DNA of 64,000 nt from positions 1,028,001 through 1,092,000 of the forward strand of contig NZ_JAFP01000001.1 in the NCBI RefSeq assembly GCF_000526195.1, in the 5' to 3' direction. The translations under genes and the position numbers were made by a program. The number at the start of each line of letters is the position of its first letter. Position 1 is the first letter of the stretch. Source of the DNA: Hippea sp. KM1 (GTDB lineage Bacteria > Campylobacterota_A > Desulfurellia > Desulfurellales > Hippeaceae). Positions 10,762-25,602 of this stretch are shown here, in pieces. The notes beneath the pieces are model-generated. The model worked only from the letters and a program-made list of their open reading frames with translations, was not told where the DNA came from and did no database searches.

Positions 10762-11343
10762 ATGGAAAACAACTTCAAGAGAAGCATCGTTGCTGTCTCC
10801 ATCTTGTTTCCAGTAATACTTATCATAGTGGTTTACTTTACATATGAGCGGAATATTTACATGTTAAAAGACGAAATCCTTAACGAATACCTATCGGTAT
10901 ACATAGACACACGAAAGGATCATTTAATGGATTTGGTGAATCATGTGTATAACGACATAGATTTAAAGAGAAAGAATCTAAAAGTTAAAATAAAAGCAGA
11001 GATAGAAAACTATATGAAGATCACCGAAGATATTATAGACAGCCTAAGGGGCAACAGCAATAATAAAAAGATAGTTGCCGTCTTAGACAGCATAAACAAG
11101 GGACTCTGCGGAAGGCATATAAGGATATTCGTGATTGATGAGAAAACAAAGAAATTTATAGTGAAGCCATGCTTAGGCATAACTGAAAAGGCCTTATTGA
11201 AGGGAGATAATCCAAGATTCATCTCAATACACAGGCTATACAAACCAAAGGGATGGATAATAGGAGCAGTTGCAGACTATGAGAAATTTGAAAACGATTT
11301 AAAAAGATGTGGTCTGTCAACCTTTTTTTATACACCCAATTAG
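10762..11343 (+). pseudogene. N-terminal fragment of a membrane Cache sensor, cut by IS3 element
   Basis: The first part of a membrane-bound sensor that continues beyond the insertion sequence. One transmembrane helix lies at about 9-28, followed by a helical segment (about 35-95) and a Cache-like extracytoplasmic unit ending in YKPKGWIIGAV at about 163-173. Native sequence stops near base 11326; the last five codons and the TAG belong to the inverted repeat of the element. Without its second half it has no output domain and is presumably inactive. The reading frame matches that of the PAS-GGDEF portion on the far side, supporting one ancestral gene. No ribosome site precedes the ATG. Confidence 0.8.
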
Positions 11344-11344
11344 T
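11327..11344 (+). repeat. Terminal inverted repeat of the IS3 element (transposase 3' side)
   Basis: TTTATACACCCAATTAGT; pairs with the reverse complement of the other end with three mismatches. The TAG that truncates the upstream sensor fragment lies inside it. Confidence 0.8.
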
Positions 11345-11377
11345 CATGTTTTTTAAAAAACCCCCCCTCTTTTTTAA

Positions 11378-12280
11378 TCACACTGCCTCTTTCTGCTCTA
11401 CTTGTTGTGTTTCTTCTTCTCTTTTGTCAGTATTTCTGTAGTAGTTCTCCAAATACTCCTCAGGAGTACACCAATTCAGTGAGGAGTGGATCCTTTTCTT
11501 GTTGTAGTACAACTCTATATACTCAAAAACCTTGATTTTAGCTTCTCTTTTTGTTTTGAAAGCCCCATTTGATAGAAGCTCACTCTTTAGGGTTTTAAAG
11601 AAGCTCTCAGCGACAGCATTATCATAGCAGTTGCCCTTTCCGCTTGTGCTTTGTGTGATATTGAAAGCTTTGAGTATGTTTCTGAATTCTTTGGAGTGGT
11701 ATTGAACGCCTTTGTCTGAGTGGAATATGAGTTTTTCTTTTGGTTTCCTCTTTCTCATTGCCTCATATAGGGCTTTTATGACGGTATTCTCCGTTTTTAG
11801 GTTGTATGACCTGCTCTCACCCACTACCTCTCTGTTGAACAGGTCTATTATTGTGGTTAAATAGAGCCAACCCTCTTTGGTTGGGATATAGGTTATATCA
11901 GATACCCAGACCTTGTTGGGTGAGTCAACAGTAAAGTCCTGATTCAACAGATTGGGCGGATATTTATCTATTTTTTCACTGTTTTTATTTTCTGGGTATC
12001 TGTGTCTTTTGTATCTTATGCTGATAAGATTGGCTGACTTCATTAGCTTCGCTACTCTTCTTCTTGAGCAGGTTATGTTTTCTTTTTTAAGTTCTGCATG
12101 GATTCTGCTTGAGCCGTACCTTTTCTTGTGGAGATAGAATATGTGTCGTATTCTCGAAAGTAGAAACTCATTTTCCTGTTTTCTTTTGCTTTGTCTTCTT
12201 CTTAGCCATTTGTAGTAGCTATCCCTTGTAATATCCAGTACTTTTGCCATCCTCTCAACTGGAAATTCATTTCTGAACAT
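11378..12280 (-). CDS. IS3-family transposase OrfB (DDE catalytic part)
   Basis: The 300-residue catalytic half of an IS3-type transposase. An N-terminal HTH_21-like region (about 40-100) is followed by the rve integrase core with the DDE triad: Asp in VWVSDITYI (about 126), Asp in FHSDKGVQYHS (about 187), and Glu in NCYDNAVAESFFKTLKSE (about 222). The terminal YNKKRIHSSLNWCTPEEY is typical. The active enzyme is expected to be an OrfAB fusion made by -1 frameshifting: the orfB frame is open back into orfA, and the fused junction would read through SEQKYRFIEMF. The ATG given is simply the first in frame after orfA and may not be used. Confidence 0.93.
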   Translation of the reverse strand: MFRNEFPVERMAKVLDITRDSYYKWLRRRQSKRKQENEFLLSRIRHIFYLHKKRYGSSRIHAELKKENITCSRRRVAKLMKSANLISIRYKRHRYPENKNSEKIDKYPPNLLNQDFTVDSPNKVWVSDITYIPTKEGWLYLTTIIDLFNREVVGESRSYNLKTENTVIKALYEAMRKRKPKEKLIFHSDKGVQYHSKEFRNILKAFNITQSTSGKGNCYDNAVAESFFKTLKSELLSNGAFKTKREAKIKVFEYIELYYNKKRIHSSLNWCTPEEYLENYYRNTDKREEETQQVEQKEAV

Positions 12281-12282
12281 CT

Positions 12283-12591
12283 CTATAAATCTGTATTTTT
12301 GTTCTGATGAGTTGAGAAGATGGCGAGTGCTTTTTTTAATATGTCTCTCTCCTGCCTCACAATTCTCAACTCTCTTTCTAAAGCCTTTATGTCTTTTCTA
12401 TCCTCTGAGATGTTTCCTTTGCCAACAAAGGCCTTCTCTCCCAACTTTTTGTATTTTGTTCTCCATTTGCAAAGGAGAGCATAGGGGATATCCATCTCCT
12501 CTGATACCTCTTTGACAGTCCTGTCTCCTTGAAGAGTAAGGAGGACTGCATCCAACTTGAATTCATTTGAAAACCTTCTCCTTGGTTTCAT
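12283..12591 (-). CDS. IS3-family transposase OrfA (helix-turn-helix)
   Basis: A 102-residue DNA-binding protein. The HTH_Tnp_1 domain occupies about 5-55 (FSNEFKLDAVLLTLQGDRTV, then IPYALLCKWRTKY) and a leucine-zipper-like helix about 68-90 (ALERELRIVRQERDILKKAL) precedes the end. OrfA alone binds the element's ends and usually represses transposition; extended by frameshifting into orfB it forms the transposase. The ribosome site AGGAGG lies just upstream of the ATG, beside a 9-bp-arm hairpin that may shield the gene from outside transcription. Confidence 0.92.
   Translation of the reverse strand: MKPRRRFSNEFKLDAVLLTLQGDRTVKEVSEEMDIPYALLCKWRTKYKKLGEKAFVGKGNISEDRKDIKALERELRIVRQERDILKKALAIFSTHQNKNTDL
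12331..12337 (-). promoter_or_regulatory. Probable -1 ribosomal frameshift site (A7) in the IS3 transposase
   Basis: On the coding strand the orfA codons read TTA AAA AAA GCA (Leu-Lys-Lys-Ala). The seven A residues form a slippery stretch of the kind used by IS3 elements. Slipping back one base joins the orfA frame to the orfB frame, which is open from here on. No downstream pseudoknot was worked out. Confidence 0.65.
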
Positions 12592-12606
12592 AAAAACTAC
12601 CTCCTT

Positions 12607-12633
12607 AAGTTAGTGTATCATATGCACTAACTT
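12607..12633. repeat. Perfect hairpin at the orfA end of the IS3 element
   Basis: AAGTTAGTG and CACTAACTT form nine-base complementary arms around a nine-base centre, between the terminal inverted repeat and the orfA ribosome site. A fold here could block read-through transcription or translation into the transposase; this role is inferred from other insertion sequences. Confidence 0.65.
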
Positions 12634-12643
12634 GGTGTATACA
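12626..12643 (-). repeat. Terminal inverted repeat of the IS3 element (orfA side)
   Basis: Reads TGTATACACCAAGTTAGT on the minus strand; mates with the repeat at the other end. Confidence 0.8.
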
Positions 12644-12741
12644 GGATTGTAGCAGGTCCAGAGTATTATTTTAAAATCATAGGAACAAACAAGATAGCAA
12701 AGAAGATATCCTTTGTCAGGTATTACAAGCCCTGGCACTGG

Positions 12742-13797
12742 ATGATAGGAACAGGCTTCTATATAACGGTTTTTGAGAATAAACTAAAAAGCAAAGATAA
12801 AGAGTTAATGGCAATAGTATCTAAAAGGAATAAGTGGTTTTTAGCTGCCCTCATCCTGTCCTTTGGCCTTATAATATCCATATTCATTTACTTGATATTG
12901 CTTTTCTTAAATAGAATAAATCAATACATAAAGAGGATAGAAGAAGACGATAGATTCAAACAGAAACTTATATACATGATACCCAATCCCATGTTCTTCT
13001 CAGATGAGCAGGGCAATATATTAGAATGCAACGAGGATTTTAAGGAGCTGTTTGGTTTAGACGAAAAAGACAACTGCAACATCCCTCAAGATAGCCTAAG
13101 AAGAATTGAGGATAAACTTAAAGAAATACTCAAGAAATCAAAGAAAGAGCATACAGAGATACCGGAGAACATAGAGATAGAACTACAGCTTGAAGACGGC
13201 ATCAAATCCTTTGAGATGTATATATCACCCCTACAATACAAAAACGAGCTATCGGGTTATGTCTGCATTATAATAGACATAACAGAGAAGAAAGAGAACC
13301 AGGAGAAACTATACAACCAATCCATAAAGGATGAGTTAACGGGGGCCTTTAACAGAAGATACCTAAAGAGCCTATTCTCTGCAGAGCTCAAAAAAGCCAA
13401 AGACAAGAAGTATAAAATATCGCTGATAATGTTTGATATAGACTTTTTCAAAAAGGTAAACGACACATACGGGCATGATGTTGGGGATAAGGTGCTAAAG
13501 AAGGTCGTGGAGATAGCAGAAAAACACATAAGGAAAGAGGATTTTCTGTTTAGGATAGGAGGAGAGGAATTTGTAATAATGCTTGCCGGGGCCGATAAGA
13601 ACAAGGCATACCACATAGCAGAAGAAATAAGGAAAGATATAAAAAGCTATGTATTTGAGGAGGGCTTTAATATAACCGTAAGCTTCGGCATAGCAGAAAT
13701 AGAAGAGGACGATACATTAGACAGTGCTTTGAAGAAGGCGGATAAAGCCCTGTATGAGGCTAAGAATGAGGGAAGGGATAGGAGTAGGGTATTTTAG
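12742..13797 (+). CDS. PAS-GGDEF diguanylate cyclase, C-terminal remnant of the IS-split sensor
   Basis: The output half of the interrupted sensor. The first codon lies inside the last strands of a Cache domain: native sequence back to base 12644 translates in frame and includes YYKPWHWMIGTGFY. A transmembrane helix (about 30-53), a PAS domain (about 70-180, ending IIDITEKKE) and a GGDEF domain (about 190-350) follow. The active site reads FRIGGEEF, with RKED five residues before it as an I-site, so cyclase chemistry is intact. If translated from this ATG it would be a membrane-anchored cyclase without its sensor; I see no convincing ribosome site. It could equally be a silent pseudogene half. 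Confidence 0.82.
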   Translation: MIGTGFYITVFENKLKSKDKELMAIVSKRNKWFLAALILSFGLIISIFIYLILLFLNRINQYIKRIEEDDRFKQKLIYMIPNPMFFSDEQGNILECNEDFKELFGLDEKDNCNIPQDSLRRIEDKLKEILKKSKKEHTEIPENIEIELQLEDGIKSFEMYISPLQYKNELSGYVCIIIDITEKKENQEKLYNQSIKDELTGAFNRRYLKSLFSAELKKAKDKKYKISLIMFDIDFFKKVNDTYGHDVGDKVLKKVVEIAEKHIRKEDFLFRIGGEEFVIMLAGADKNKAYHIAEEIRKDIKSYVFEEGFNITVSFGIAEIEEDDTLDSALKKADKALYEAKNEGRDRSRVF

Positions 13798-14473: not shown

Positions 14474-16105
14474 ATGAAGGAAAGAATAGTTGAGATTGTT
14501 GAGGATTTCCTAAAAGAACACAAGCAAGAGGTAAATTACACCATAGAATACCCAAAGGAAGAAAAATTCGGGGACTATTCCACAAATATGGCCATGATAC
14601 TGGCCTCAAAGCTGAAGAGAAACCCCAAAGAGATAGCCAAAGAGTTCGTCGATTTTGCCCTAAACAAATCAGATGGTCTATTTGAGAAGATAGAGATAGC
14701 AGGGCCAGGCTTTATAAACTTCTATATAAACAGATCGGCATTCAGCCAACAGTTAAGAAACATAGCCTGCGATGTCGAAGCCTATCTTAAGCCACAGCTG
14801 AAATCAACAAAAAAGATTCAGGTCGAATTTGTCAGTGCCAACCCAACAGGCCCTCTCCATGTTGGACACGGCAGGGGGGCTGCAATTGGTGATTCCATAG
14901 CAAGGATACTCTCCTTCTGCGGATACAAGGTTGAAAAGGAGTATTACATAAACGATGCGGGTCTTCAGATGCAGCTGCTTGGGCTTTCCACCCTGGTCAG
15001 ATACAAACAACTGCTCGGCATTGATGAGGCGTTACCAGAAGAGGGATACAAGGGCGAATACCTTATAGATATAGCAAAACAGCTTATCGTGGAATACGGC
15101 GAAAACCTGCTCAACAAGGATGAGGATGAGGCCATCCAGATATGTGCAAAAAAGGCAGGCGATACAATACTAAACGACATCATGGAAACACTAAGGGAAT
15201 TCAGGGTGGAATACGATAAGGTCTTCAACGAGAAGAAGCTATACGAAAACAAGGAGATAGAGGAAAGCATATCCCTTCTAAAGCAAAAGGGTGCCTTGTA
15301 TGAAGAGGGCGGGGCGCTATGGTTTAGAAGCAGTCAATTTGGGGATGACAAGGATAGGGTCATAAGGCGCAGCAACGGCGCATATACATACTTTGCAAGC
15401 GATGTGGCATACCATAGAAATAAGTTTTTAAAGAGGAACTTCTCCGAGGTAATAGATGTTTGGGGTTCTGACCACCACGGCTATGTAAAACGGGTCAAGG
15501 CCGCCATTGAGGCAATGGGTATAGACCCAGAAAGGCTTAAGGTGGTTTTGGTTCAGATAGTAAACCTTCTAAAAGGTGGAGAGAAGATCTCCATGTCAAC
15601 AAGAAAAGCTCAATTCGTAGAACTCAGGGATGTGATGAAAGAGGTGGGCGTTGATGCAGCAAGGTTTATGTTTCTATCCAGGAGCATAGACTCCCATTTA
15701 GACTTCGATCTGGATCTGGCAAAGAAACAGAGCAACGAAAACCCCGTCTATTATGTGCAGTATGCGCATGCAAGGATAAGCTCCATCCTCGAACAGCTAA
15801 ATGAAGGGGTGGACAAGAACGCAGATACATCACTTCTGAAGGAAAAAGAGGAGATCGACCTGATCAAATCCATAATCAGATTCAAGGAGCTATTGGAGAA
15901 AGCCTGCATACAGACAGAGCCCTATTTTGTTGTAAAGGGGCTTTTGGATTTAGCAGAAAAACTCCACAGGTTTTACAACAAACATAGGGTAATAATAGAG
16001 GACGAAAACCTAAAAAGAGCAAGGGTATTGCTGGTATGGGTTGTAAGGGAGGTATTGAGAACAGGTCTAAACCTAATTGGTGTTGAAGCCAAAAACAAGA
16101 TGTAA
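14474..16105 (+). CDS. argS: Arginyl-tRNA synthetase
   Basis: Class I aminoacyl-tRNA synthetase that charges tRNA-Arg. The 543-residue length fits bacterial ArgS. The N-terminal tRNA-binding domain (about 1-105) is followed by the signature FVSANPTGPLHVGHGRG containing the HIGH box as HVGH (about 126-129). The KMSKS region appears as KISMSTRKAQ around 375, a variant common in ArgS. The C-terminal alpha-helical anticodon-binding domain covers about 420-543 and ends in the expected GLNLIGVEA. It lies between tatA and the SPOR gene in the same direction. Confidence 0.97.
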   Translation: MKERIVEIVEDFLKEHKQEVNYTIEYPKEEKFGDYSTNMAMILASKLKRNPKEIAKEFVDFALNKSDGLFEKIEIAGPGFINFYINRSAFSQQLRNIACDVEAYLKPQLKSTKKIQVEFVSANPTGPLHVGHGRGAAIGDSIARILSFCGYKVEKEYYINDAGLQMQLLGLSTLVRYKQLLGIDEALPEEGYKGEYLIDIAKQLIVEYGENLLNKDEDEAIQICAKKAGDTILNDIMETLREFRVEYDKVFNEKKLYENKEIEESISLLKQKGALYEEGGALWFRSSQFGDDKDRVIRRSNGAYTYFASDVAYHRNKFLKRNFSEVIDVWGSDHHGYVKRVKAAIEAMGIDPERLKVVLVQIVNLLKGGEKISMSTRKAQFVELRDVMKEVGVDAARFMFLSRSIDSHLDFDLDLAKKQSNENPVYYVQYAHARISSILEQLNEGVDKNADTSLLKEKEEIDLIKSIIRFKELLEKACIQTEPYFVVKGLLDLAEKLHRFYNKHRVIIEDENLKRARVLLVWVVREVLRTGLNLIGVEAKNKM

Positions 16106-16120
16106 AGACAGGAGGAAGAG

Positions 16121-16915
16121 ATGCCAGAGCCCGATAAGGATAAAATCAAAGAGATATTGGAGGGGCATAGCAAGAAGTTCTCAGCCGTTGAGTTGATAGT
16201 TGGGATTGCTGTAATCCTGGTTATCGGTGCAGGCGTGGGTTATGCGCTTTTTAAGATACTCTCTCCACCATCACAGCCTGAGTATGCCCACATAGAGGAG
16301 AACATACCATCGCAGGTCGAACCCACATACACGCAAAACCAACCGCAACAAGAGGCCGAACAGCAGCAACCAGAAGCAATACAGGAGCCCATACAAACAG
16401 AAAGCCCATCAGAGAAGGCAGCCCAGACAGAGTCAATACCTCAGCAGGAGGAAGGTCCACAAATCATAAACACAACAAAAACCCAACAACAAACAGCCAA
16501 CAAGCAATCAAAACCACAAACAGAAACCATACAAAAGCAAACAAAACAGACCCAGGTAAGCCACAACAAACCCAAAACAGAACGCTCTATACCCAAAAAG
16601 ACCAAACCCCACAAAACAGTCATAGCACACACCAAAACAAAACACACCCATAGCAAAAAGCATCTAAAAAAATACATACTCCAGGTCTCATCAAACAGCA
16701 ACAGAAAGCTTGCGCTGTTAACGGTTATAAAGCTAAGAAAGTGTGGCTATAAGGCCTTTACAAAGGAGATAGAGGTAAACGGCAAGAAATACACAAGGGT
16801 AATGGTTGGGCCCATAGAGGGGTATGAGGCGGCCAAAGTTGAGGCCAAACAGATAAAGAAACAGCTCCATCTGAACTATACGCCGATAATCAAGAAGTAT
16901 GATAAAGTATCCTAA
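16121..16915 (+). CDS. SPOR-domain membrane protein
   Basis: A 264-residue bitopic inner-membrane protein. A short cytoplasmic N-terminus precedes one transmembrane helix at about 25-46 (VGIAVILVIGAGVGYALFKI). The region from about 55 to 180 is a low-complexity Gln/Thr/Pro/Lys-rich linker long enough to cross the periplasm. A SPOR domain (about 185-260) ends the protein; such domains bind denuded glycan strands at division septa. The architecture matches FtsN/DedD-like proteins, and the downstream mur/fts genes support a division role. AGGAGGA lies immediately upstream of the ATG. The last 17 bases overlap lgt. Confidence 0.88.
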   Translation: MPEPDKDKIKEILEGHSKKFSAVELIVGIAVILVIGAGVGYALFKILSPPSQPEYAHIEENIPSQVEPTYTQNQPQQEAEQQQPEAIQEPIQTESPSEKAAQTESIPQQEEGPQIINTTKTQQQTANKQSKPQTETIQKQTKQTQVSHNKPKTERSIPKKTKPHKTVIAHTKTKHTHSKKHLKKYILQVSSNSNRKLALLTVIKLRKCGYKAFTKEIEVNGKKYTRVMVGPIEGYEAAKVEAKQIKKQLHLNYTPIIKKYDKVS

Positions 16916-17675
16916 TATAAACCCCAACATAATCACCATTGGCGGGCTTCACCTAAGGTGGTATGGACTGGCCTATGCATTGGGTTTTGTTGCAGGATAC
17001 GCTTACTTAAACAGAAGGCTTAAGAAGCTAAACATAAAGGGTTTGATGGACGATGTCCTTTTGTATGCCGTTTTGGGCGTCATACTTGGGGGAAGATTGG
17101 GTTATGTGTTGATTTACAACCTCGGGTATTACATAAAACACCCGCAGGAGATCCTCTATATATGGCATGGAGGCATGAGCTTTCATGGTGGCCTGGTGGG
17201 TGTGGCAATAGCAGGTCTTCTTCTATCGAAGAAATACAACATAGACTTCTATACACTGGCCGATGAGGCTGTCGTTGTGGCGCCGATAGGGTTGTTTTTA
17301 GGAAGGATAGCAAACTTCATAAACGATGAGTTATGGGGGAGACCGACCGATCTGCCCTGGGGTGTGGCATTCCCATCGGGTGGGTTTATACCACGCCATC
17401 CCTCTCAGCTGTATGAGGCGTTCTTTGAAGGGGTTGTTCTATTCTCTATCATGATATTTTTCAGGGATAGGCTTATTGAGAAAAAGGGGGTAATGTTCTG
17501 GCTGTTTGTCTTTTTGTATGGTTTTTTCAGGTTTTTTATAGAGTTCACAAGAGAACCCGACCCACAGATAGGCTTCATATGGAAGCTAACGATGGGGCAG
17601 TGGCTGTGTCTGTCCATGATTGTTGTTTCTGCTATAGAACTATATAGAAGGTGGAATTATGATAAGCATAGATGA
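16899..17675 (+). CDS. lgt: Prolipoprotein diacylglyceryl transferase
   Basis: Inner-membrane enzyme that transfers diacylglycerol from phosphatidylglycerol to the lipobox cysteine of preprolipoproteins. At 258 residues with about seven hydrophobic helices it has normal size. The catalytic and lipid-binding signature is clear: GGLHLRWYGLAYALG near the N-terminus, YIWHGGMSFHGGLVG around 87-101, GRIANFINDELWGRPTD around 136-152, and RHPSQLYEAFFEG around 167-179. The start overlaps the SPOR gene, implying coupling. Its clients in this window include both Pal proteins and the FN3 lipoprotein. Confidence 0.97.
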   Translation: MIKYPNINPNIITIGGLHLRWYGLAYALGFVAGYAYLNRRLKKLNIKGLMDDVLLYAVLGVILGGRLGYVLIYNLGYYIKHPQEILYIWHGGMSFHGGLVGVAIAGLLLSKKYNIDFYTLADEAVVVAPIGLFLGRIANFINDELWGRPTDLPWGVAFPSGGFIPRHPSQLYEAFFEGVVLFSIMIFFRDRLIEKKGVMFWLFVFLYGFFRFFIEFTREPDPQIGFIWKLTMGQWLCLSMIVVSAIELYRRWNYDKHR

Positions 17676-18234
17676 GAAGAAAAGATTAATAAAACAGAAA
17701 AAAGACGAAGTGCCTCCCCATGTCTTGGAGATGGGGTTGAATATGCTCTTTATAGAGCCCAAAGAGATCATAGATAGAATAGAAGAGGGCAAGCAGATAG
17801 AGCTAATAAAATTGGACAACCTGGAAAATTCAAAAGCAGATACCGTATTGATAGACATCAGGGATATGCCTTACTCCTCAGAATTGGACACCATAGCCTC
17901 AAATAAATCCATAAAGCCAGAGTTGGGCGTCATCGTCTATGACATAATACTTGAGGAATATCAGGTTTACCTCCACAGGATATACCAAACCGATGCGATA
18001 GTATTCCCCTTAAAACCGCTGAATGAGAAAACCGCCGAAAAGATAATATTCATCGCCAATTCGATGGGCATATTGCCGATACCGTTCATAGAGAGCCTTG
18101 ATGAGCTATCAAAGATAAAAGAGATGTCATTCGTTGATGTATTGGCCACTAACGAATCAGATATGGATACGGATAAGCTCCTGCTTTCCATAGATCTTGA
18201 AAAGGAGATAGTAAGGTGTTTAAAGAGGCAATAG
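17659..18234 (+). CDS. Degenerate indole-3-glycerol-phosphate-synthase-like protein of unknown function
   Basis: A 191-residue soluble protein whose N-terminus (about 4-22) and central-to-late part (about 90-185) follow the order of conserved blocks in TrpC-type (beta/alpha)8 synthases: IVYDIILEEYQVYLHRIYQT, then TDAIVFPLKPL, a helix, GILPIPFIESLDEL and VDVLATNESDMDTD correspond to barrel strands 3-6. The catalytic lysine of the LxKDFxID block is replaced (VIVYDII), the other active-site EFKKxSPS segment is not recognisable, and strands 7-8 are missing. It is therefore unlikely to make indole-3-glycerol phosphate. It overlaps lgt by 17 bases and murC by 19, so it is embedded in the envelope operon; a regulatory or scaffolding role is possible. 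Homology is judged by eye. Confidence 0.6.
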   Translation: MISIDEKKRLIKQKKDEVPPHVLEMGLNMLFIEPKEIIDRIEEGKQIELIKLDNLENSKADTVLIDIRDMPYSSELDTIASNKSIKPELGVIVYDIILEEYQVYLHRIYQTDAIVFPLKPLNEKTAEKIIFIANSMGILPIPFIESLDELSKIKEMSFVDVLATNESDMDTDKLLLSIDLEKEIVRCLKRQ

Positions 18235-19598
18235 ATAACGCAAAGAAGATCCACTTCGTCGGTATTGGTGGTGTGGGCATGAGCTCAATCGCACAATACC
18301 TTCTGTCCAAGGGATATACCATAACGGGCTCGGATATAGAGGAAAATTCCTATGTGGAGAAGCTAAAAAGCCAGGGCGTAAAAATCTATATCGGACACTC
18401 ACTGAGCAATATAGAAGAGGATGTGGATTTAGTTGTTGCATCCTCAGCCGTAAAAAACGACAACATAGAGCTCGTTCAGGCCGACAAGCTCAACATACCC
18501 ACCGTAAAGAGGTATCAGCTGCTGGCGTATCTTGTAAACAACTCAAACTCCATAGCCGTTGCAGGGTCTCACGGCAAGACCACCACAACATCGCTCTGCG
18601 CATCGCTTCTAAAGAATGCAGGCTTAGACCCAACGGCCATAATAGGCGGCAAGCTAAGAAACATAAACAACAATGTCATAATAGGAAACGGCGATCATCT
18701 AATCGTTGAGGCAGACGAAAGCGACGGCGGGTTTTTACTTCTGAATCCAAGAATAGGCATAGTCACCAACATAGACAACGACCATCTGGGATTTTATGGA
18801 AATTTTGACAACGAAAAACTGGCGTTCTTCGACTTTATGGAGAATTCGGAGAAACTCATAATAAACTTAGATGACCCCATCATAAAACAGTGGAAAAATC
18901 CGCAGAAGAAGAGCGATCTTATAACCTATAGCATAAAATCAAAAAAGGCCTGCGTGTATGCATACGACATAGAAGCCACAGCATTGGGGAGCAGATTCAG
19001 CGTAAAGACACCATCAAAGAGAATAGAGGATCTGAACCTAAAGATCATAGGCCAGCACAACATATCCAATGCCTTAGCGGTTATCGGCCTTGCAGAGATT
19101 TTGGGTATTGATGAGGAGATAGTAAGACACACGCTGATGCAGTTTGAGGGCGTGGATAGAAGGTTTACCTATATAGGCGATTATAATAAGCTAAAGGTGT
19201 TCGATGACTATGCCCACCATCCAACAGAGATAAAGGCGACCCTGAAAGCAGCAAACCTCATAAGCAAGAACATCTATGCCGTTTTTCAACCACATCGGTT
19301 TTCACGAACGGCTTATCTGATGGATGAGTTTGCAAATAGCTTTAAGAATGTAAAGAGGGTCTTCATCCTGGACATATACGCAGCAGCCGAGCCGCCAATG
19401 GACGGTATAGACTCGCAGGTGCTAACCCAGAAGGTAAACGAGATATCGGCAAATGCCGTCTATATAACAAACGAGGAGATGCTAAAGAAACATTTGAATC
19501 AAATAGACGAAGAGGGCGTTTTGGTGGCTTTGGGTGCCGGCAGCGTGAGCAAGATAATAAGAAAAATAACCGATGATTACAAAACTTCTGCCGCTTGA
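18216..19598 (+). CDS. murC: UDP-N-acetylmuramate--L-alanine ligase
   Basis: First of the Mur ligases, adding L-Ala to UDP-MurNAc with ATP in the cytoplasm. At 460 residues it has the usual three domains: N-terminal UDP-binding (HFVGIGGVGMSSIAQYLL), central ATPase with GSHGKTTTTSLCASLL at about 111-126, and a C-terminal domain with FDDYAHHPTEIKATL and FQPHRFSRT. The start is GTG, with AAAGGAGAT six bases upstream inside the preceding gene. The 3' end overlaps murB by 26 bases. Confidence 0.98.
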   Translation: MFKEAIDNAKKIHFVGIGGVGMSSIAQYLLSKGYTITGSDIEENSYVEKLKSQGVKIYIGHSLSNIEEDVDLVVASSAVKNDNIELVQADKLNIPTVKRYQLLAYLVNNSNSIAVAGSHGKTTTTSLCASLLKNAGLDPTAIIGGKLRNINNNVIIGNGDHLIVEADESDGGFLLLNPRIGIVTNIDNDHLGFYGNFDNEKLAFFDFMENSEKLIINLDDPIIKQWKNPQKKSDLITYSIKSKKACVYAYDIEATALGSRFSVKTPSKRIEDLNLKIIGQHNISNALAVIGLAEILGIDEEIVRHTLMQFEGVDRRFTYIGDYNKLKVFDDYAHHPTEIKATLKAANLISKNIYAVFQPHRFSRTAYLMDEFANSFKNVKRVFILDIYAAAEPPMDGIDSQVLTQKVNEISANAVYITNEEMLKKHLNQIDEEGVLVALGAGSVSKIIRKITDDYKTSAA

Positions 19599-20370
19599 GA
19601 AGATAACGACAATAAGACAAGACGGTTCTATTTGGGTGCACCATATAGAAACAGAGGACGATTGCAAGATGGCCGAAATGGTGATTGGCCATGGAAGCAA
19701 CCTGCTCATTAAGCAGGCCAGGGAGGTGTATAAGCTCTCAGAGCGGTTTAATTACATAAAACAACAGGGCGACAGATTACTCGTCGGCGGGGCAACGCCG
19801 ATAAGGCAAATACTTAGATACTGCCTTGCAAACGGATTAACCGGTATGGAGTTCTTAACGGGTGTCCCTGCCTCCTTGGGGGGTGTTGTGTATATGAACG
19901 CAGGGGCCTTTGGCGACCAGATGGGCGATATTGTTGATTATATAAGGGTATTTGATTTAAAAGAGAAAGCTTCTAAACTTGTCAACGGCATACGCTTTTC
20001 TTACAGAAACACCAACATAGACGGCATCATACTTGAGGCGGCCTTAAAGCTAAAACGCAAAGATAGGGGCCTGATAAAGAGCAAAATGGAGAATGTTATA
20101 AAAAGAAGGTTAAAATCCGCTCACATAAAAAACACCTTTGGCAGCGTATTCAAAAACCCGCAGGAAAAACCGGCAGGGTGGCTAATCGAAAGGGTAGGGC
20201 TAAAGGGTTTTAAGAAAAACACCGCCATGATATCGCCAAAGCATGCAAATTATATCCTGGGGTTGGGCAGGGCAAGGATAGATGATATACTCTATTTGAT
20301 AGATATGGCCAAAGAGAGGGTTTTGAAAACCTTTGGCATTGAACTCTCAGAAGAGGTGGTAATACTATGA
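19573..20370 (+). CDS. murB: UDP-N-acetylenolpyruvoylglucosamine reductase
   Basis: FAD enzyme that reduces UDP-GlcNAc-enolpyruvate to UDP-MurNAc using NADPH, the step before MurC. The FAD-binding domain contains GHGSNLLI and EFLTGVPASLGGVVYMNAG; SYRNTN and GSVFKNP provide the substrate and proton-donor regions, and the Glu of the final SEEVV corresponds to the catalytic glutamate. At 265 residues it is somewhat short for the family because the N-terminus is trimmed. It overlaps murC by 26 bases and ddl by four (ATGA). Confidence 0.95.
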   Translation: MITKLLPLEKITTIRQDGSIWVHHIETEDDCKMAEMVIGHGSNLLIKQAREVYKLSERFNYIKQQGDRLLVGGATPIRQILRYCLANGLTGMEFLTGVPASLGGVVYMNAGAFGDQMGDIVDYIRVFDLKEKASKLVNGIRFSYRNTNIDGIILEAALKLKRKDRGLIKSKMENVIKRRLKSAHIKNTFGSVFKNPQEKPAGWLIERVGLKGFKKNTAMISPKHANYILGLGRARIDDILYLIDMAKERVLKTFGIELSEEVVIL

Positions 20371-21251
20371 AGGTGGCTGTAATTTGTGGGGGAAACTCCT
20401 CAGAGAGGGAAGTATCCATAATCACGGGCAATGCCGTCTATAACGGCCTGCTTAAGAACTTCGAGGCGGAGTGTATCGTATGCGATACAGCCAAGGATTG
20501 CATAAATAAGGTGCTAAAGAGCAACGCATCTGTGGTTTTTGTTGCCCTTCACGGTGGATTTGGAGAAAACGGCCAGATTCAGGCCACATTTGAATCGTTG
20601 GGCATAAAATACACCGGCTGCTCCTTTAGCGAAAGCAACATAGCCATGAACAAGTTTGCCACAAAATCCATACTCAAAAGCATGAACATCCCCACATCAC
20701 CCTTTAAGCTGGTAAGAAGCTTAGAGGAACTCCAGCAGGTCGATTTCTATCCCATCTGCTTAAAGCCCAATGCAGAGGGCTCAAGCGTGGATGTGAATTT
20801 TGCAGATACAAGGGAACAAGCAACAACAATAGCAGAAAAGCTGCTCAACAAATACGGCGAGATTTTGGTGGAGAAGAAACTCAACGGTAAGGAGCTAACC
20901 GTAGGCATTCTATTTGGCAAACCGTTAGAGGTTATAGAGATAAGACCCAAGAAGGGTTTTTATGATTACAAAAACAAATACACTCAAGGAGCAACAGACT
21001 ATATAGTGCCTGCACCCCTGCCTGAGAACATCACAAACCTAACAAAGCAGATAGCAAAAAGGGCGTTTTATGCAATAGGTTGCAAAGGGTATGCCAGGGT
21101 TGATATGATATTGGAAGGGAATGTGCCGTATGTGCTTGAGATAAACACCATACCCGGTATGACACCCACAAGCCTGCTTCCCAAGGCGGCTCAGGCTTCA
21201 GGCATAACATTTGAGGAGCTGGTAAAACTGATTGTGGAAGGGGCATGTTAG
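20367..21251 (+). CDS. ddl: D-alanine--D-alanine ligase
   Basis: ATP-grasp enzyme forming the D-Ala-D-Ala end of the peptidoglycan stem peptide. Key segments: GGNSSEREVSIITG (first substrate), ALHGGFGENGQIQ, the central KPNAEGSSVDV loop, and EINTIPGMTPTSLLPKAA with the magnesium ligands Glu and Asn. Length (294) is normal. The start overlaps the murB stop as ATGA and the stop overlaps ftsQ by seven bases, consistent with tightly coupled translation. Confidence 0.97.
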   Translation: MKVAVICGGNSSEREVSIITGNAVYNGLLKNFEAECIVCDTAKDCINKVLKSNASVVFVALHGGFGENGQIQATFESLGIKYTGCSFSESNIAMNKFATKSILKSMNIPTSPFKLVRSLEELQQVDFYPICLKPNAEGSSVDVNFADTREQATTIAEKLLNKYGEILVEKKLNGKELTVGILFGKPLEVIEIRPKKGFYDYKNKYTQGATDYIVPAPLPENITNLTKQIAKRAFYAIGCKGYARVDMILEGNVPYVLEINTIPGMTPTSLLPKAAQASGITFEELVKLIVEGAC

Positions 21252-22030
21252 ATTACAAAGACCTTAAAAACGAAACAACAAAGCAAAAAAGGGGCATAGA
21301 CATAAAATTCCTTATCAACATAGCAAAACTAACCGTAAGCCTTGTCGCATTAGGGGGCTTTTTTGTTCTGTTGGCTTATGGATACAACCAATACTCATCC
21401 AGGTTCGCAAAACTCAGATACATCGTCATAGAGGGCAATAGTGTATTGCCCAAAAAACTAATAAGCAGCCTGACAACAAAGGGAAAATCCCTCAAGCTTA
21501 AAGAATACAGAGAGGATTTAATATACCTAAACCTCATATCCAATCCATGGATAAAAGAGGCCCACCTGGCCAAGATATTCCCCGATACGATGTATATAAA
21601 AATCAAAGAAAAAGAGCCCAAAGGCATGCTGATCTTTAACAAAACCACATACATCATAGACGAAAACGGCTCTGTTATAGACACATACAAACCGTATTTA
21701 AGGCTGCCGTCTTTGAAGAAGATCACCATAGACAAAAAGTCGTTCTTAAACAACAAAACCCTGCTAAGATCCGTAATGAATATATATGAAAAATTAGACA
21801 AAGTGGAAAAAATAAATTATATTGAAATAGTGTCTAATAGCTATCAGCTGGTTCACTTTAAAGGTGGTTTGAATGTCGCCGTTAACAGCTTTGATTGTCC
21901 TGAAAAAGCCATAGTGAGATTGAAGGAAAAGTGGAGTTATCTGTATTCTTTAAAAGATAGATTGGACAGTGTCAGTATTTGTTTCGACAACAAATTCGTT
22001 TTAAGGTGGAAAAAAGGAGTTAAAAGGTGA
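21245..22030 (+). CDS. ftsQ: Cell division protein FtsQ
   Basis: Bitopic inner-membrane divisome protein that links early and late components. Residues 1-25 are cytoplasmic, 26-47 form the transmembrane helix (ISAK-type stretch NIAKLTVSLVALGGFFVLLA), and about 55-125 make up the POTRA domain beginning LRYIVIEGNSVLPKKLI. The rest is the FtsQ/DivIB beta domain (IIDENGSVIDTYKPYLRLPS). Sequence conservation is low, as usual for FtsQ; position between ddl and ftsA makes the call firm. The stop overlaps the ftsA GTG. Confidence 0.93.
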   Translation: MLDYKDLKNETTKQKRGIDIKFLINIAKLTVSLVALGGFFVLLAYGYNQYSSRFAKLRYIVIEGNSVLPKKLISSLTTKGKSLKLKEYREDLIYLNLISNPWIKEAHLAKIFPDTMYIKIKEKEPKGMLIFNKTTYIIDENGSVIDTYKPYLRLPSLKKITIDKKSFLNNKTLLRSVMNIYEKLDKVEKINYIEIVSNSYQLVHFKGGLNVAVNSFDCPEKAIVRLKEKWSYLYSLKDRLDSVSICFDNKFVLRWKKGVKR

Positions 22031-23283
22031 ACGAGGTAAACCAGAGGGATATTGTTGTAGGGTTAGACATAGGCACAACAAAGGTATGCGCTATTGTTGG
22101 CAAGAAGACCCCTGAGGGTCAGATAAAGATCATAGGCATAGGTCAGACACCGTCAAAGGGCCTTAGAAAGGGAGTGGTTATCAACATAGACGAGGCTGTC
22201 CTATCCATAAAGAGGGCTGTGGCCTATGCAGAAAGAATGAGTGGCATAAAAATAGACAGCGTATGGACAGGCATCGCAGGCGGTCATATCCGCTCATACA
22301 ACTCAAACGGCGTGGTCGCCATAAAGAACATGGAGGTATCTGAATCCGACATAAGAAGGGTTATAGATGCGGCCAAAGCCGTTGCGATACCACCCGATAA
22401 GGAGATAATCCATATCATACCGCAGGAATTTATAGTGGACGACCAAAGCGGCATCAGAGACCCCAGAGGGATGAACGGAACAAGGTTAGAGGTTAAGGTC
22501 CACATAGTAACCGGATCTGTCACAAATGTGCAGAACATAATCAAGTGCTGCAACAGGAGCGGGCTTAGGGTAAAAAACATCGTCTTACAACCCATCGCAT
22601 CGAGCTATTCCATTCTCCTTCCAGAGGAGAAAGACCTTGGTGTAGGTTTGATAGATATTGGTGGAGGAACAACGGATGTGGCTATATTCGCCTCCAATGC
22701 CATAAAACACACATCGGTTTTAGCCATAGGTGGCGACCATGTGACAAACGACATAGCCATAGGCCTAAGAACCCCGTTTAAAGAGGCTGAGGAGATAAAG
22801 AAAAAATACGGCTGCGCCTTATCGGATATGGTGTCTGAGGATGAAATCATAGAGATACCGGGTATAGGCGACAGAAAATCCAGGCAGATACCCAAAAAAC
22901 TCCTAAGCGAAATTATAGAACCGAGAATGGAGGAGATATACTCCTTAGTCAGGGAAGATTTAGAAAAGAGAAACCTCATGCCGCTTCTTGCCGGCGGTAT
23001 TGTCATAACAGGGGGCTCTGCCTTAATGAGCGGGGCTTTGGAGTTGGCCGAAAGGCAATTTGAGCTCCCGATAAGGCTGGGTAAGCCCCGAGGTATAGTT
23101 GGATTAAAAGACGCCGTTGACAACCCGATGTATGCAACAGGCGTTGGGCTTGTAATTTACGGATTTACAAAGGAAGAAGAGGAAGAGGATCTGAATTTAG
23201 AGATAGGCAAGGGCAGGGATGACGATAGCCTCTTTTCGGTTATCCTCAAAAAGATGAAAAGCTGGGTTAAAGAAATGTTTTAA
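22027..23283 (+). CDS. ftsA: Cell division protein FtsA
   Basis: Actin-like ATPase that anchors FtsZ to the membrane. Nucleotide-binding motifs are GLDIGTTKVCAIVG (phosphate 1), DIGGGTTDVAIF (phosphate 2) and GGIVITGGSALMSG (adenosine). The 1C domain is seen at about 85-165. The C-terminus, KKMKSWVKEMF, is a plausible amphipathic membrane-targeting helix. The start codon is GTG, overlapping the ftsQ stop as GTGA. ftsZ begins 11 bases downstream with its own ribosome site. Confidence 0.98.
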   Translation: MNEVNQRDIVVGLDIGTTKVCAIVGKKTPEGQIKIIGIGQTPSKGLRKGVVINIDEAVLSIKRAVAYAERMSGIKIDSVWTGIAGGHIRSYNSNGVVAIKNMEVSESDIRRVIDAAKAVAIPPDKEIIHIIPQEFIVDDQSGIRDPRGMNGTRLEVKVHIVTGSVTNVQNIIKCCNRSGLRVKNIVLQPIASSYSILLPEEKDLGVGLIDIGGGTTDVAIFASNAIKHTSVLAIGGDHVTNDIAIGLRTPFKEAEEIKKKYGCALSDMVSEDEIIEIPGIGDRKSRQIPKKLLSEIIEPRMEEIYSLVREDLEKRNLMPLLAGGIVITGGSALMSGALELAERQFELPIRLGKPRGIVGLKDAVDNPMYATGVGLVIYGFTKEEEEEDLNLEIGKGRDDDSLFSVILKKMKSWVKEMF

Positions 23284-23294
23284 TGGAGGCATAA

Positions 23295-24428
23295 ATGGCT
23301 AAGCAGGAAAAGTTGGACTATTCTATAGGTGCGATAATAAAGGTTGTGGGCGTTGGCGGCGGCGGCAGCAATGCCGTTAATACCATGATTACCCACGGTA
23401 TAAAGAATGTGGAGTTTATCAGCGCAAACACCGATATACAGGCATTGGGCGTATCGCTTGCCCAAACAAAGCTCCAATTGGGTAAAAAGCTAACAAGGGG
23501 CCTGGGTGCTGGAAGCGACCCAGAGAAGGGCAGAAGGGCGGCAGAAGAGAGTATAGAGGAGATAGAAAACGCACTGGCCGGCTCCGATATGGTCTTTATA
23601 GCAGCCGGTATGGGTGGCGGCACAGGCACGGGGGCATCACCCGTTATAGCCAAGGTTGCAAAGGATATAGGCGCTCTTACCATAGCCGTTGTAACCAAGC
23701 CATTTGACATGGAAGGCAAGATAAAGAAGGAAATAGCCCTAAAGGGCATTGAGGAGCTCAAAGGCATTGTTGATAGTATAATCGTCATACCCAACCAGAA
23801 GCTTATGGACATATACAAGAACCTGCCACTGCTTGAGGCCTTCAAAAAGGCAGACGATATACTCAGGCAGGCCGTGCAGAGCATCGTGGAGCTTATATAC
23901 AAACAGCCGAATTCACAGATCATCATGAACATAGACTTTGCAGATGTTGTTTCTGTAATGAAAGAAAAGGGCGTCGCCTTGATGGGCGTTGGTGAGGCAT
24001 CCTCAGAAAACGGTGAAAACAGGGTAAAAAGGGCCACAGAGATGGCCATATCCAACCCGCTACTGGAAAATACATCCATCAAGGGCGCAAAGGGTATCTT
24101 AATGAACATAACAGCCGGAAAGAACTTCGGCCTGGATGAGTTTAACGAGGCAACCTCTATAATCGAGCAGAACATGAACCCAAAAGCCCTATTCAAGCAC
24201 GGATTTGTTCTGGATGAAAGCATGGGAGAAAGGGTAAGGATAACCATCATAGCAACCGGTTTCAGCGAAGCAACAGCTCAGCAGCAGAGCAGAAATATAA
24301 TAAACAGGCCGGGGTATAGAAAGCTGGATTCCAAAACACTAAACGAGATTAAGAAGGAGACGGCTATCCCGATAGATGATGAGAGGGATATACCGGCATA
24401 CATAAGAAGGAAAAGGGTCGAAAATTGA
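23295..24428 (+). CDS. ftsZ: Cell division protein FtsZ
   Basis: Tubulin-like GTPase that forms the division ring. The 377-residue protein shows [16 protein letters not shown] near the N-terminus, the GTP signature [10 protein letters not shown] at about 108-117, and NIDFADV in the synergy region. The C-terminal peptide [10 protein letters not shown], which binds FtsA, is intact. The unstructured linker is short. A GGAGG site precedes the ATG. Its stop overlaps the plsY start. Confidence 0.99.
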
Positions 24429-25045: not shown

Positions 25046-25327
25046 ATGGCGTTAAACAAGAGAGAGATTGAGCTTTTGGCAGACAAGATAACGGTAAACC
25101 TCATCAAAGACGGCAACATAAAGCTAAACAAGGATATATCCCTCCTAAAAACCATAGCAAAGGAAGTATTAGAGGAAGACGCACAAAAGGAGAGGGAGAT
25201 CGACCTAAAAACCAAAGAACTCTTAAAGGAATACTCCTCAGAGATCGAAAAAGAAGGGGCCGATACATCCAAGCTCTTCATAATGGCCAAGAAGAAGGTA
25301 GCAAAACAGGAAGGGTTCTTGCTATGA
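25046..25327 (+). CDS. DUF507 family protein (first of a tandem pair)
   Basis: A 93-residue, strongly charged, mostly helical protein of the DUF507 family; function unknown. It reads NKREIELLADKITVNLIKDG and continues with alternating Glu/Lys-rich helices, without membrane segments. The stop overlaps the second DUF507 gene by four bases, so the two are made together and may form a heterodimer. It sits between plsY and carA; neighbours do not indicate a role. Confidence 0.8.
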   Translation: MALNKREIELLADKITVNLIKDGNIKLNKDISLLKTIAKEVLEEDAQKEREIDLKTKELLKEYSSEIEKEGADTSKLFIMAKKKVAKQEGFLL

Positions 25328-25602
25328 GATACAGCAGCGCAAGGATAAGGCATCTGGCAAAAAAGATAGTAAAAAGGGCAACAGAGGAGGGCATCATAGA
25401 GATTACAACAACAGAAAAACTCGTAATAAACACCATCTCAGAGACGATGGAGAAATACTTTTCCATAGAGGATGAGGTTTACAACAAGGTCGTGGAGGAG
25501 TTGCAAAAGAGAAGCAAGAAGCTGATACCCGGCAGCATGGAGTGGAAGGTGGCTTTTAACAAAGCCTATGAAGAGGAAATGAGCAGAAGGTTGTTGAAAT
25601 GA
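25324..25602 (+). CDS. DUF507 family protein (second of a tandem pair)
   Basis: A 92-residue relative of the preceding protein, beginning RYSSARIRHLAKKIVKRATE and ending SMEWKVAFNKAYEEEMSRRL, which is typical of DUF507. Basic N-terminus and acidic middle suggest a helical bundle. Sequence has diverged well beyond a recent duplication. It is coupled by ATGA overlaps to the genes on both sides. Function unknown. Confidence 0.8.
   Translation: MRYSSARIRHLAKKIVKRATEEGIIEITTTEKLVINTISETMEKYFSIEDEVYNKVVEELQKRSKKLIPGSMEWKVAFNKAYEEEMSRRLLK

Follow-up and report, generated by a model that had tools for sequence, protein, structure and literature searches.

The closest described relatives of the protein reported here are the IGPS enzymes (TrpC; PF00218), represented by the structures 3qja, 3t55, 1jcm and 1igs. 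TIM-barrel pseudoenzymes are also known, such as XIP-I and narbonin, which are full-size barrels from parent families other than IGPS. A gene of Hippea sp. KM1, here termed X, codes for a protein that shares with TrpC its fold, N-terminal extension and order of elements, and the two are homologous across β2–β6 and the N-terminus. Unlike TrpC, X lacks the β1 catalytic loop, helices α6–α8, the phosphate site and the catalytic set, and at 191 residues it is about a quarter smaller than the enzymes, which span about 245–270. With XIP-I and narbonin it shares a barrel, the loss of catalysis and a probable use in binding. A search of the open-access literature found neither a TrpC pseudoenzyme nor an account of the lgt-X-murC locus. 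The reading favored here, at a probability of about 0.6, is that X is a pseudoenzyme, the decayed yet selected descendant of an lgt-linked trpC.

Organization of the locus

The window, a 64,000-base stretch that is part of one 1,742,311-base contig, carries X within a gene string running from argS to ftsZ (Table 1). X is a genuine ORF with an ATG start, and the initial annotation described it correctly as a 191-residue frame overlapping both lgt and murC, by 17 and 19 bases. Shine-Dalgarno-like sequences precede the X ATG (AAGGTGG) and the murC GTG (AAGGAG), and translation of lgt, X and murC is probably coupled through the overlaps. A promoter scan gave fewer hits than shuffled sequences. A sequencing error or frameshift is ruled out as the source of X; 18 genomes have the frame, one with its parts on two contigs. 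Wall and lipid genes of the neighborhood include lgt, murC, murB, ddl, ftsQAZ, a plsY-type acyltransferase gene and lpxC. The operon also includes argS and carA, neither of which is an envelope gene, and thus gene context does not single out wall synthesis.

Table 1. Window positions of X, its sub-regions and the neighboring genes
Feature	Position	Strand	Basis or remark
argS and SPOR-domain protein gene	14474..16915	+	Upstream of lgt; one gene string, conserved in relatives
lgt	16899..17675	+	Overlaps X start by 17 bases
X, compact TrpC relative of 191 aa, catalytically dead	17659..18234	+	Pfam match, AF2, Foldseek, active-site alignment, dN/dS 0.13–0.20 in relatives
X codons 19–36 (PPHVLEMGLNMLFIEPKE), constraint raised relative to paralogous TrpC	17713..17766	+	Identity 0.68 vs 0.34
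X codons 47–61, β1 and remnant β1-α1 loop, SPS catalytic loop deleted	17797..17841	+	Alignment
X codons 90–110, β3-α3, VIVYDIILEEYQVYLHRIYQT region; Tyr94 at catalytic Lys position, α3 strongly conserved	17926..17988	+	
X codons 174–188, β7 (174–179) and β8 (184–188) joined without helices	18178..18222	+	AF2 model
murC, GTG start	18216..19598	+	Overlaps X end by 19 bases
murB, ddl, ftsQ, ftsA, ftsZ	19573..24428	+	Downstream of murC; one gene string

X as a predicted compact IGPS-type barrel

Profile searches bear out the initial annotation's view that X resembles IGPS. X by itself falls below the PF00218 gathering score (E=1.9e-4, 21.1 bits, gathering score 27); some relatives pass it, Desulfurella proteins for instance at 50–53 bits, and the model matches all 18 members of the X family, with a best E of 1.9e-14. 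The X family profile matches solved natural IGPS chains with E values down to 4e-13. X fails the NCBIfam TrpC equivalog (24.9 bits, where the best model's cut-off is 380).

The AF2 model of X, built on an 18-member alignment, has a pLDDT of 90.1 and a pTM of 0.88. Its predicted strands lie at residues 47–49, 62–66, 90–94, 113–117, 139–144, 161–164, 174–179 and 184–188; the model is without helices α6–α8 and most of α1. The Desulfurella X model (pLDDT 84.8) also has eight strands, with α1–α7 present, α6 and α7 short, and α8 absent. The count of eight strands is that of predicted models made from alignments of 17–18 sequences. In Foldseek searches of the PDB with both proteins, the top matches listed are all IGPS or IGPS-based designs, with query TM scores to the M. 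tuberculosis IGPS 3qja of 0.72 for the window X and 0.86 for Desulfurella X. A structure search had been proposed at the outset as a test that the IGPS assignment could fail; IGPS barrels came out on top. A viral structure library yielded no good match to X. By these predicted models, X has the eight strands and the IGPS top matches of an IGPS-type (β/α)8 barrel, without its eight helices. The AF2 and Foldseek results thus point to compaction by loss of loops and helices, rather than to a protein that ends before strands 7–8, as originally described.

Loss of the active site

The Sulfolobus IGPS residues E51, K53, K110, E159, N180 and E210/S211 are taken here, as established knowledge, to be the catalytic and substrate residues. 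At the first five positions the window X has K51, D53, Y94, F143 and N165; the E210/S211 region is unalignable in X. The SPS loop and the β7/β8 phosphate-binding motifs are deleted or unaligned in 16–17 of 17 X members, in agreement with the reported absence of the SPS segment. The catalytic set is conserved in all 15 trp-operon TrpCs and all five lgt-linked TrpCs (see below), and not in the X family. The initial statement that X lacks the catalytic lysine is true of the window copy, which has Tyr94, and of H. maritima; it does not extend to the family, since 8 of 17 relatives retain a Lys at the K110 position. D95 is invariant across the family, and the catalytic positions are never conserved as a set. 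Together with the fold matches, the loss of the set upholds the description of X as IGPS-derived and catalytically dead.

The position after lgt was inherited from an enzyme

The sample comprised 25 genomes of the class, which were all the genomes of the phylum examined. X is present in 18 of them, from six genera in two families (f1 and f2) that make up the Hippea/Desulfurella group. It lies directly 3’ of lgt in 18/18, and murC is next wherever the contig extends that far, so that the described fixed place between lgt and murC is held in every genome with an assembled locus; in Desulfurella, a gap of ~50 bases separates X from murC. Two genomes without X (G015 and G021) also have no assembled lgt and are thus uninformative on loss of X. 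The X of genus g5 (G012, L018 1282–2001) is the longest, at 240 residues, differs in its C-terminal part and sits on the deepest, longest X branch of the tree; it is possibly an intermediate stage.

In two sister families, the place of X is occupied by a full-length TrpC. Family f3 (G019 and G023) has the order argS-SPOR-lgt-TrpC-murC-murB-ddl-ftsQ-ftsA-ftsZ, and f4 has argS-(one ORF)-lgt-TrpC-TrpF. These lgt-linked TrpCs (f3, L061 and L062; f4, L063–L065) share with X the place after lgt and the N-terminal segment, and in f3 the surrounding operon matches that of X; unlike X, they are complete and active by sequence. The f3 protein passes the NCBIfam TrpC equivalog (290.5 bits, cut-off 260). 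In G019 and the f4 genomes the lgt-linked TrpC is the sole full IGPS found, and is therefore presumably their working enzyme. Two f3 genomes also carry a 228-residue TrpC on a long tree branch, beside a TrpF-like ORF (L071 1629–2315, L072 1557–2243); G023 has both this TrpC and the lgt-linked one.

The sister families alter the initial picture in three respects. First, a relative with intact catalytic residues, which had been named as a finding that would go against it, exists in the f3 and f4 TrpCs after lgt. Second, the position was taken as a sign of recruitment to wall synthesis; an intact TrpC in the same place in f3 and f4 shows that the position was established before catalysis was lost, and a location inherited from a working enzyme is no evidence for such recruitment. 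Third, the absence of trp neighbors holds in the window and not in f4, where trpF directly follows the lgt-linked TrpC.

A scan of genome contigs with the single X protein gave no match; with the X family alignment, it returned only Desulfurellaceae/Desulfurellales members and ordinary TrpCs. None of the latter has a detectable lgt in the flanking sequence retrieved (up to 5 kb), and thus no lgt-trpC linkage was seen outside the class in the scanned sample.

Apart from three incomplete genomes (G006, G002 and G005), every genome with X has a complete second TrpC; G005 and G002 show fragments of one. In the genomes examined (the window genome, H. maritima and D. acetivorans) this second TrpC lies within a trpE-G-D-C-F-B-A-like string, in which the names beyond trpC, trpF and trpA are presumptive, assigned partly by recognition and partly from searches. 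The trp-operon TrpCs group with Calditrichota TrpC (99/96), which suggests, without proving, that the trp operon was acquired from outside.

The case for descent of X from an lgt-linked trpC rests mainly on synteny. In profile comparisons, X matches the lgt-linked TrpCs over 166 columns, N-terminus included (E=1.6e-17), and the trp-operon TrpCs over 113 columns (E=1.2e-9); the N-terminal segment is retained in X and absent from the trp-operon TrpCs. The tree joins X to the lgt-linked TrpC with support of 88/94, or 58/69 with a stricter column set, and the AU test does not reject a placement of X beside the trp-operon copy (p-AU 0.25 and 0.12). Gene trees thus favor, without proving, descent from the lgt-linked copy.

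Selection and shifted constraint

In five close comparisons, dN/dS of X is 0.13–0.20, as expected of a sequence selected as a protein; a Fisher test of synonymous versus nonsynonymous change gives p values of 2e-4 to 1e-19 in four of the five. The same comparisons give 0.01–0.05 for lgt and 0.04–0.09 for murC, so X evolves faster than both. X thus combines enzyme homology, loss of the catalytic set and purifying selection, three features of a pseudoenzyme.

In the set of 15 genomes that encode both X and TrpC, X is the less conserved of the two almost throughout. Between Hippea and Desulfurella there are two exceptions: residues 19–36 (identity 0.68 in X and 0.34 in the real TrpC of the same genomes) and helix α3 (0.79 and 0.65). 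Constraint at the nucleotide level on the 19–36 segment is ruled out; where the amino acid is kept, codon identity is 0.35 within the segment and 0.45 elsewhere in X. Synonymous codons are free to vary there, and the constraint therefore acts on the protein. The N-terminal motif is not universal, being weak in three f1 genera (L011, L012, L014/L015).

Role of X

Because the active site is lost and selection nevertheless preserves X, the protein has probably acquired a new function that is not enzymatic. The history would begin with an intact, lgt-linked trpC at the present X locus. The separate, complete trp operon elsewhere would have made this copy redundant and free to lose catalysis, and the Hippea protein, judging from its model, may then have shed helices 6–8 while keeping the eight-stranded core. 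Constraint has moved from the catalytic loops to the N-terminal segment and α3, and X would now act by binding, with the 19–36 segment and α3 as its putative contact surface. Envelope proteins are possible partners, given co-translation with Lgt and MurC. X as a lineage-specific pseudoenzyme is well supported, and the series of decay stages leading to it is unusually clear.

As a special case of such a binding role, X could bind Lgt, MurC or another division or wall protein and regulate wall synthesis. The overlaps with lgt and murC and their probable translational coupling, a place kept in 18/18 genomes with the locus, and purifying selection are all consistent with this; however, the gene held this place before catalysis was lost, argS and carA share the operon, and a wall regulator is rather unlikely. 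The fuller proposal is more doubtful still: in the Hippea/Desulfurella order, an eight-stranded, TrpC-derived barrel minus three helices would serve as a dedicated regulator or scaffold of envelope synthesis, and the stages from intact enzyme to stripped barrel would survive at one conserved locus.

Alternatively, X may bind and modulate the trp-operon TrpC, which is without the N-terminal segment, or TrpF. The TrpCs that share a genome with X lack precisely the segment that is most constrained in X, as such an accessory would have it. Against this, the congeneric genome G006 (94% complete) has X while trpA, trpC, trpD and trpF were not found, although one assembly gap could explain this; a tryptophan accessory is improbable. 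trpB was likewise not found above the cut-off in G006, where the trp operon is either lost or within an assembly gap.

It is also conceivable that the X frame only couples ribosomes from lgt to murC and that its protein is idle, as the overlaps at both ends in the window and the faster evolution relative to its neighbors might suggest. The dN/dS values, a motif kept though its codons change, and the retention of X in Desulfurella despite the gap before murC make this very improbable. Least probable is a different reaction catalyzed in the old pocket, for which the Lys in 8/17 members and the invariant D95 could speak, since the polar pocket set is not conserved, the β7/β8 phosphate-binding motifs are gone and most of the conserved sites fall within the N-terminal segment and α3.

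With X read as a decayed yet selected lgt-linked TrpC, the class holds a natural series at one unmoved gene position, from an intact barrel enzyme through a compact to a stripped form, along which the focus of selection shifts away from the catalytic loops and onto a new surface. The route from enzyme to pseudoenzyme, and the helix loss that a (β/α)8 barrel can tolerate, can thereby be tested with proteins found in nature. If X has an envelope protein as its partner, wall synthesis in the Hippea/Desulfurella order would gain an unexpected component.

Other features of the window

An rve-type (IS3-like) transposase ORF (11378–12280, minus strand) lies between ORFs 10762–11343, with a weak Cache-domain match, and 12742–13797, a PAS-GGDEF protein, and possibly disrupts a gene for a diguanylate cyclase; the region (10762–13797) shows no clear target duplication. 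DUF507 is split across two adjacent ORFs at window positions 25046–25602, which cover profile positions 1–93 and then 98–180, and short ORFs like this pair also occur 3’ of ftsZ in relatives.
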